A stretch of DNA of 64,000 nt from an uncultured Clostridia bacterium. GTDB taxonomy: Bacteria > Bacillota > Clostridia > Christensenellales > Borkfalkiaceae. The stretch is taken from assembly GCA_947625385.1 (NCBI GenBank), contig CANQOB010000003.1:1-64000 (forward strand). The letters run 5' to 3'. Position 1 is the stretch's first letter. Each line of letters starts with the position of its first letter. A model generated the notes under the pieces. That model saw only the letters and a list, made by a program, of their open reading frames with translations. It ran no database searches and had not been told where the DNA came from. A program made the position numbers and the translations under genes. This document shows, piece after piece, positions 41,550 through 56,395 of this stretch.

Positions 41550-41578
41550 ATTATATTGGTGAACGTTTATTTTGTCAA
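41550..41578 (-). promoter_or_regulatory. Perfect-consensus sigma-A promoter (TTGACA-17-TATAAT) for the giant gene
   Basis: Reverse complement TTGACA aaataaacgttcaccaa TATAAT. Confidence 0.85.
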
Positions 41579-41673
41579 GTCTTTTCGACAAGTTTTTTGA
41601 ATTTTCCTGAAATTCTCAAAATTGGCTCTAAATATCAAAACGGTACGACAAATTATGACAAAATACCCCCCCC

Positions 41674-54072: not shown

Positions 54073-55953
54073 TTATTCTGCGATCGCTTCGATAAAGCTT
54101 GCAAGTTTCGACCAACCCGCGGCAGCTTTGTAGGCGTCCACGCTGTCCGTGGGCACATAGACTTTGAGGGTTGCCGAGGCTGCGGGCGCGATCAAGAACA
54201 CGCTCGTTGCCGTGGGCGGGTTCGTCGCTTTGACCGTGATCGACGTAAGAGCTGTATTATCGTAGAACTCATAGCCACCAAGCTCCGTCAGATTCGCACC
54301 GAACACAACGGTCGTGAGCTCCTTGCACCCGGAGAAAGCGCTTCTTCCGAGCGTTACAACGCTTTCAAGTTCGACGGATTGAAGTTTCGAGTTGATGAAT
54401 AGTTCGTATCCGATCGTCTTTGCACTGCTCAGGTCGACGGTCTGTACTGAGGAAGTCGAGAAAACGCAGTTGCCGATCGTCTCTGCCAAAGGCAAGTCGG
54501 CATGTTCGAGCGCAGTCGTTCCATAGAATGCGTATTTCCCGACCGTCTTGACCTTGGGGAAGTTGGCGGTCGTCACGGTCGCGTTGAAGATGAATGCGGA
54601 GTTCGCAATTTCCGTGACATTCTCAAATGTGACTTCGGTCTCCGTGCTGTACGGAAGATACATGTAGAGAACGGTTCCGTCCATGGAGAGAACTGCGTTG
54701 TTCTCGATCTTGAAGTGTTCGTTCCCGGGAGCAATCGTCACGGACTGCACCTTGGCGACGTTCTTCGGTTCGCACTTTGCGGGTTCATATTTATTGTTCT
54801 CGCCCATGCCGAAGAGCGTACCGAAGTCGGGGAATACTTCGAGGTCGGCGGGAATCTTCAAATTCACATAGTCCCCCGTGTATTCAACGAGCTCACCGCC
54901 CTCGATCTTCCATTCGGCATCCTTGCCGCTGACATAGCCGCACTCACAGGTATCGCCGCCCTTGAAGTCATGCTCCGCGCGGCTTCCTTCTTGTTCTGCA
55001 TTGTCGAAGTCGCACGCCTTCCAATGGTGCGTATCGTCATACCCCCATTTCACATAGTTATGGACGTGCTTGACGGTGGGTGTCGTCGCCCCGGAGACCC
55101 AGGTCACTTCAAACAGACCTTCCGGTGCGTCGCTCGGGCGTGTGAGGTTCCCGCCCTGGTCGGGATAGTACTGCTGATTGAGTTTGTTGTAGACCTTGAA
55201 CTGGTCGTTGGTCTTTACGGTGATGGTTGCGCTCCACGTCTTGTCGCCGTCGAAGGTCATGTGGATGCAATCCTCGATTTTTCCGTAGCCGGGCCAATCG
55301 TTCTTGGGATATGCGGCAAGCTTGCCGACGATATACATATCCTCTGTGGTGGAAGGCGGCGTGACGCTCTCGACGAGTTCCCACGTCACATAGTTATCCT
55401 TCCAAGGCGCGGGAGAAGGTTTGGTATGTACGGTGAATTTGTAAACGCCGTCCTTGCCCGTTGCGACACCGATATTCTTCGTCCCTGCGTCGATGAAGGT
55501 ACCCGAAGCATTGCGGACTTCATCGATGCCGAAGTAGGTACCGTCCGTCCAGACCAATGCGCCGTTGGCGTCCTTCTCATCCTGACGGATTTTGAAGCTG
55601 TCCCCTCCGGCATAGATCTTGAACTGAATGGTGTAGAGCGTATAGCCGTCTGCGTCCTTCTTCGGCTCTTTGGTGAGCTTGAAGTCGGGTTTGAGAGCCG
55701 TCCAACTGCAAGTGGAGAGGTCTCCCGCGCCTGCGCCGGTCACCCAGAATTCGCGGGTGTCACGGTCTGCGTCGGGCGTGACGTCGCCTTCCCCGGGATT
55801 ATCGGGGTTGTTGGGGTCGTCGGGGTTGTTGATGCCGGGGTTGTCGCCCTCGTTCGGGTTGGGCTCCGTGGGAGCGCAGGCGGCGACCGCCCAGCCGAGG
55901 CAGCCCGCAAGGGCGACCGTCAGACCCAAAGTGAGCCATTTCTTGGTGTTCAT
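54073..55953 (-). CDS. BspA-like leucine-rich-repeat lipoprotein with N-terminal SusE/F-like modules
   Basis: Lipobox CLGWAVAAC; 'MYIVGKLAAYPKNDWPGYGKIEDCIHM' module; BspA-type LRRs (VTEIANSAFIFNATVTTANFPKVKTVGKYAFYGTTALEHADLPLAETIGNCVF). Confidence 0.85.
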   Translation of the reverse strand: MNTKKWLTLGLTVALAGCLGWAVAACAPTEPNPNEGDNPGINNPDDPNNPDNPGEGDVTPDADRDTREFWVTGAGAGDLSTCSWTALKPDFKLTKEPKKDADGYTLYTIQFKIYAGGDSFKIRQDEKDANGALVWTDGTYFGIDEVRNASGTFIDAGTKNIGVATGKDGVYKFTVHTKPSPAPWKDNYVTWELVESVTPPSTTEDMYIVGKLAAYPKNDWPGYGKIEDCIHMTFDGDKTWSATITVKTNDQFKVYNKLNQQYYPDQGGNLTRPSDAPEGLFEVTWVSGATTPTVKHVHNYVKWGYDDTHHWKACDFDNAEQEGSRAEHDFKGGDTCECGYVSGKDAEWKIEGGELVEYTGDYVNLKIPADLEVFPDFGTLFGMGENNKYEPAKCEPKNVAKVQSVTIAPGNEHFKIENNAVLSMDGTVLYMYLPYSTETEVTFENVTEIANSAFIFNATVTTANFPKVKTVGKYAFYGTTALEHADLPLAETIGNCVFSTSSVQTVDLSSAKTIGYELFINSKLQSVELESVVTLGRSAFSGCKELTTVVFGANLTELGGYEFYDNTALTSITVKATNPPTATSVFLIAPAASATLKVYVPTDSVDAYKAAAGWSKLASFIEAIAE

Positions 55954-56017
55954 ACATTCCTCCTAAAAAAGTTTTATTTGCCGTTATCCACGAAATTTCA
56001 TGGTCACGACATATTCT

Positions 56018-56044
56018 ATTATACCACCCCCCCCTGCTTGTCAA
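56018..56044 (-). promoter_or_regulatory. Consensus promoter with abnormal 15-bp spacer containing G8: TTGACA-AGCAGGGGGGGGTGG-TATAAT
   Basis: Both hexamers perfect on the minus strand; upstream of the BspA-like gene. Confidence 0.75.
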
Positions 56045-56179: not shown

Positions 56180-56395
56180 AAGAAAAGAGCGCGGCGGCTT
56201 CTCTCGAAGCCGCCGCGCGCCCAATTCTAATAATTGTTGCCTTAGGCGGAATTCACTTCCGCCGTGGGCGTCTCAATTTGCCGAACCCTTTCGGCTTACT
56301 GTCCGTTGAAACATCCAATCGGAACCAAGCCTATTGAGGCGCAGAAGTCAATTCGCTCGAATGATTTCTTTGCGCAGAAAAGAAATCATTCGAAA
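56180..56395 (+). repeat. Structured intergenic repeat, copy B, with GCGGCGG hairpin copy 2
   Basis: GCGCGGCGGCTTC-TCTC-GAAGCCGCCGCGC (56189-56218); CAATTTGCCGAACCCTTTCGGCTTACTGTCCGTTGAAACATCCAATCGGAACCAAGCCTATTGAGGCG; hairpin TCGAATGATTTCTTT...AAAGAAATCATTCGA (56357-56393). Confidence 0.8.

Follow-up and report, generated by a model that had tools for sequence, protein, structure and literature searches.

Introduction

In Neisseria meningitidis the surface-protein genes porA, fetA and opc each have an unstable homopolymer at the -35 and -10 boxes or between them, the length of which sets the spacing of the boxes and with it transcription (PMC2791445; PMC7864442). Poly-G tracts are likewise present in the surface-protein promoters of tp0126, tprE/G/J and tprL of Treponema pallidum, where tprL has 7–11 Gs with a majority of 9 (PMC7864442). 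For the poly-G promoters of porA and tp0126 a 17-bp spacer is the experimental optimum (PMC7864442; for porA also PMC2791445), while tprE/G/J are permissive with up to 8 Gs, so that polarity is promoter-specific (PMC7864442). The BspA-like surface proteins of Candidatus Mycoplasma girerdii number at least 28, and eight of them have repeats of variable length; for several phase-variable genes of this species, BspA-like genes included, the predominant form is predicted to be OFF (PMC5476646).

The promoter described here lies in a window of 64,000 nucleotides (64 kb) from an uncultured Clostridia bacterium. Whereas porA, fetA and opc are single genes of a Gram-negative pathogen, the window promoter belongs to a 22-copy module in an uncultured Clostridia and to a class found genus-wide. 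The T. pallidum promoters are like it in tract and in surface-protein target, without evidence of common descent. Switching of the BspA-like proteins of Ca. M. girerdii works by dinucleotide repeats, with frameshift and premature stops, whereas in the window family it would work by promoter spacing. The vlp genes of Mycoplasma hyorhinis form a lipoprotein family in which promoter and signal peptide are conserved from gene to gene and each promoter spacer holds a homopolymer, but the tract is poly-A and the proteins and the lineage are unrelated to the window family. In Bordetella fim a C-tract upstream of the -10 box spaces an activator site. An earlier reading of the window, made from the letters alone (the sequence-only reading), had named opc and fim as precedents, of which opc is apt and fim a less exact match. 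The best-documented poly-G promoter switches that we found are those of host-adapted pathogens, and our literature search found no description of such promoter switching in Clostridia. The mechanism is already known; its application to many genes and throughout a genus, as in this lineage, was absent from the papers searched.

Results

The window promoter and its gene

Positions 56044-56018 of the minus strand read TTGACA-AGCAGGGGGGGGTGG-TATAAT, which comprises a perfect -35 box (56039..56044), a 15-bp spacer (56024..56038) and a perfect -10 box (56018..56023). The spacer contains a G8 tract (56027..56034), the proposed site of slippage, and ends in TGG (56024..56026), a TGn extended -10 motif; TGn is present in every copy of the family described below. 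A porA/tp0126-type locus has a homopolymer tract flanked by recognisable -35 and -10 boxes, as is seen here, and we read the element as a likely sigma-70-type promoter with a slippage-prone G8 run in its spacer. Direct reading confirmed the boxes and G8 spacer given in the sequence-only reading, and the ten comparison promoters to which it had assigned 17-bp spacers all scored best at 17 bp. Absent from it were the extended -10 motif at the end of the spacer and the membership of the element in a family of 22 copies.

The window contains three perfect TTGACA/TATAAT pairs, and the other two have 17-bp spacers. Tracts of G8 were seen twice against 2.03 expected, which is chance level; the significance of the tract at 56027..56034 is its placement between two perfect boxes, not its mere presence.

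The promoter is followed on the same strand by a leader (55954..56017, GTCGTGACC...GTGGATAACGGCAAATAAAACTTTTTTAGGAGG), variants of which are common to the promoter family, with a Shine-Dalgarno sequence AGGAGG at 55959-55964, and then by a gene for a lipoprotein of 626 aa (54073..55953). The product has a lipobox signal peptide (MNTKKWLTLGLTVALAGCLGWAVAAC) and BspA-type leucine-rich repeats at residues 469-578, which matched Pfam LRR_5 with an E value of 1.5e-20 (73.8 bits vs. a cut-off of 27.7). LRR_5 repeats on an exported protein identify it as BspA-type, and we assign the gene to a surface lipoprotein with predicted exposure at the surface. Upstream, a strong intrinsic terminator on the minus strand (56189..56218, 13-bp stem, z -4.2) sets the promoter apart from a preceding ffh-rpsP-KH-protein gene group, the names of which were read off the translations.

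An invertible promoter was considered and rejected, as no inverted repeats flank 56018-56044; the hairpins or palindromes seen were local and confined to one side. The other G8 tract of the window (41666-41673, minus strand) lies about 90 bases upstream of the 17-bp promoter at 41550 and directly follows an inverted repeat, TGAACAAAATGTGAATTTTGTTCA; it may be an operator or belong to a second promoter with a tract.

Copies in the genome of origin

Among the 87 perfect TTGACA/TATAAT pairs of the 1.66-Mb genome, 19 are copies of this element, 18 with G8 at 15 bp and one with G7 at 14 bp. Three further copies were found on C25 (cut by the contig start; G8, 15 bp), at C8:16274 (TTGACC, G8, 16 bp) and at C2:19025 (TTGACG, G9, 19 bp), giving at least 22 copies, 20 with G8, one with G7 and one with G9. 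Family spacers were thus 14, 15, 16 or 19 bp and in no copy 17 bp, as against 55 of the 68 remaining perfect pairs (4 others at 16 bp and 9 at 18 bp). The 18 perfect G8 copies keep exactly 15 bp while the adjacent spacer bases vary (AGCA, AACA or ACGC; TGG, TGA or TGC). Distinct tracts of eight or more Gs number 29 in the genome, and 21 of them lie within this promoter family.

Every copy with a visible gene start precedes a related lipoprotein gene, and nearly all of these begin MNTKKWL. The shared module consists of A/T-rich upstream DNA, promoter, leader and signal-peptide codons, while the gene bodies are related but divergent. Comparison of the copies (L061-L082) revealed mixed combinations of upstream DNA in three or more types, leaders in several and signal peptides in two: the upstream type ...ATCAAAAAAACAC is paired with AGAATATGTCGTGACC, AGTAAGTGCCGAAACG and TATAAGTGCCGAAACG leaders, and the type ...TTTACAAAAACGC with AGAATATGTCGTGACC and AGTAAGTGCCGAAACG leaders. 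This suggests that the lipoprotein paralogs exchange promoter, leader and signal-peptide modules by recombination or gene conversion, and such exchange is one reason that may be offered for the uniform G8. Many contigs stop inside the common 5' region of the copies, so less frequent tract lengths may also have been lost in assembly.

The protein bodies of L061-L082 diverge strongly from one another, and repeated His/Trp/Cys motifs (e.g. HTHTYTKWDY...HWKVCPDDG) occur in many of them. Three of the eight other tracts of G8 or longer form C6-TGT-G8/9 hairpins (L204, C8:35533; L206, C15:5004; L211, C53:2426) close to the 3' ends of lipoprotein genes of the same family, where they are perhaps terminators.

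Tract promoters across the genus, order and phylum

Tracts of seven or more Gs between perfect boxes were found in 71 of 103 genomes of the genus (69% of sampled species), while a reversed-pattern control gave 0. Tracts of seven or more Cs between boxes occurred at 14 sites in 11 genus genomes, 13 of them C9. Statistics for G sites were drawn from the 124 distinct sites among the matches listed, with the genome of origin left out; a scan of public contigs, which covered spacers of up to 18 bp, was likewise left out of the spacer statistics. Tract length at these 124 sites peaked at 9 (7 Gs, 9 sites; 8, 24; 9, 69; 10, 19; 11, 3), and the tract began 0–8 bases from the -35 box and ended 0–10 bases from the -10 box. 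Spacer length had peaks at 15–16 and 19 bp (13 bp, 6 sites; 14, 5; 15, 23; 16, 30; 17, 11; 18, 13; 19, 22; 20, 11; 21, 2; 24, 1), and tract length was uncorrelated with the rest of the spacer (rho -0.05, p 0.60).

Spacers of 17 bp were present in 11 of these 124 tract promoters vs. 108 of 139 ordinary promoters (Fisher p about 9e-32), the latter being the 68 from the genome of origin and 71, counted by hand, from the relative G003. Since the search pattern admitted every spacer length within 13–21 bp and went beyond it at both ends, the shortage at 17 bp is no product of the pattern. Within the same order but outside the genus, an independent set of 70 sites among the matches listed from 38 genomes had 7 spacers of 17 bp as against 23 of 16 bp. 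The deficit at 17 bp is clear against 16 bp (p 2e-5) and suggestive only against 19 bp (18 vs. 29 sites, one-sided p 0.07). Elsewhere in the phylum 4 of 397 genomes (about 1%) had a site, a rate not strictly comparable with that of the genus because the order and phylum were searched for G8 or longer and the genus for G7 or longer.

A protein-binding site at a fixed position was rejected, as tract position and strand vary across the genus. Loss of mismatch repair was also rejected as a cause: a MutS-family match was present in 103 of 103 genus genomes, 99 of them over the mutS1 cut-off, and MutS is intact and full length in G000. In the nearest relative, G060 (L088-L099), orthologous lipoproteins stand behind a related TTGACA-AATGGAC-G7/G8-TACAAT, with both tract lengths in one genome.

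Genes downstream of tract promoters

Downstream genes were called mechanically as the first ORF with a Shine-Dalgarno sequence and scored for a hydrophobic N-terminus and a lipobox. In the other genomes of the genus, 34 of 58 G-tract promoters preceded a lipoprotein gene vs. 4 of 50 ordinary promoters (p 2e-8), and 47 of 58 vs. 14 of 50 preceded a gene with any signal or membrane start (p 3e-8). These p values are somewhat optimistic because some paralogs entered as separate loci and suspected homology guided the choice of part of the second batch; the lipoprotein trend was already present in the first 30 loci, taken one per genome. The surface-protein target seen in the window, with its lipobox and LRR_5 repeats, is matched by lipoprotein enrichment across the genus.

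Length differences between homologous promoters

Homologous promoters were compared only in pairs with leader identity of at least 93% over about 100 bases, because free-end-gap comparison of flanks is unreliable at low identity. One promoter shared by G022 and G024, with no difference in the 100 bases downstream and 96% identity in the upstream DNA, has G8 at 16 bp in the former and G9 at 17 bp in the latter. A lipoprotein promoter has spacers of 16, 14 and 15 bp in G003, G022 and G024, two paralogs within G072 have 17 and 13 bp, and a set from G009, G026 and G028 has 17, 15 and 13 bp, with one member (L222) only 85–87% identical and admitted as an exception to the filter. Differences span 1–4 bp, and some are adjacent substitutions or insertions rather than pure changes of the tract. 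Five promoters of G057 were uniform, all with G9 at 15 bp and built AAC-G9-TGA. Tract length differs among several homologs in the genus; of the copies in the genome of origin, 20 of 22 are G8.

Discussion

In the mechanism that we propose, replication slippage would add or remove single Gs, each step shifting the spacer by 1 bp, and RNA polymerase binding would change as the spacer moved toward or away from a 17-bp optimum. The assembled 15-bp form would stand two Gs short of 17 bp and, by analogy with the poly-G spacers of porA and tp0126, is probably a low-expression state, with G9–G10 higher. Because each lipoprotein gene has its own tract, the genes could switch independently and yield a population with mixed surface-protein repertoires. 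With at least 22 copies of the G8 promoter before surface-protein genes, and its likes throughout the genus, the bacterium probably switches coat proteins by gain or loss of single Gs. Slippage within one population, its effect on expression and the length that is ON are what we infer; for the phase-variable promoter explanation as a whole, with its module in 22 lipoprotein-gene copies, we have fair confidence. A wider picture, of a lineage-wide combinatorial surface switch in which many lipoprotein genes sit behind tract promoters 1–2 bases off the optimum (low by default and 1–2 slips from high) and modules recombine among paralogs, is offered tentatively, its chances being somewhat short of even.

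Against this explanation, the near-constant tracts in the 22 copies (20 G8) and in the five G057 promoters (all G9) give no sign of fast slippage inside a genome, MutS is intact, and eight Gs is short for a tract that slips rapidly. An extended -10 motif can rescue poor spacing, and the TGn motif could make spacer length less important here. The 15-bp form need not be OFF, given the TGG motif and the permissiveness of tprE/G/J at 8 or fewer Gs; a mostly-low population is compatible with a uniform G8. The sequence-only reading had proposed that G8 is weak and that G10 restores activity: a low 15-bp form remains probable, while G8 as OFF and G10 as ON is a hypothesis that the extended -10 motif and the activity of some T. 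pallidum promoters with no more than 8 Gs (PMC7864442) caution against. Its claim that the surface lipoprotein is phase variable gains from the genus-wide class, the free tract position, the avoidance of 17-bp spacers, the enrichment for lipoproteins and the homolog spacer differences, and loses from the near-invariance of the tract in its own genome. An invariant G8, which that reading had itself named as evidence against it, is nearly what the 20 of 22 copies present, and assembly collapse or gene conversion could account for the sameness.

A rival account takes the G-tract spacer for a fixed element rather than a switch: selection would keep its length, and 15 bp together with the extended -10 would give a steady, perhaps regulated, output from lipoprotein genes expressed together as a regulon. 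The 18 perfect copies are exactly 15 bp despite differing adjacent bases, and the G057 promoters are also 15 bp despite a different build, so that conservation appears stronger for the total spacer length than for the tract itself. Across the genus, however, tracts stand anywhere in the spacer, C can replace G, spacers range over 13–21 bp and a negative correlation between tract and remainder is missing; close homologs have unequal spacers, where a fixed site or spacing would look otherwise. We consider such an element unlikely. The mixed combinations of upstream, leader and signal-peptide variants, which point to recombination among copies, and the contig breaks at the common 5' region would also fit a recent duplication or gene conversion of the whole module that carried the near-identical G8 along as a passive passenger with no role of its own. 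But unrelated lipoproteins of other species, with unrelated flanks, also have G-tract spacers, 21 of the 29 genomic tracts of G8 or longer fall in such spacers and the spacers are displaced from 17 bp, which makes this account very improbable. Assemblies are error-prone at homopolymers and repeats, yet an artefact of assembly or chance is already contradicted by recurrence of the class in dozens of independently assembled genomes, by its presence in named public MAG records and by the empty reversed-pattern control, and we give it almost no credence.

Under phase variation by tract slippage, the occurrence of the class in 69% of species sampled in one uncultured gut-type genus vs. about 1% of other genomes sampled in the phylum suggests that slippage switches shape the surface diversity of little-studied commensals. 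Spacer statistics, with tract promoters off 17 bp and ordinary ones on 17 bp, provide a general test, and tract lengths should be readable in existing shotgun data of the lineage, which would allow culture-free tracking of surface switching in animals.

An assembly of Candidatus Ancillula from termite gut, which we take to belong to a different phylum from Clostridia, contained about 16 G-tract promoters ranging from G9 to G12 within one genome (L101, L103, L104, L109, L110, L120, L129, L137-L142, L158, L162, L163). Many of these precede a family starting MMDKNAYRNS or MMNKNAYRNS, and the assembly offers a strong, independent candidate case of phase variation.
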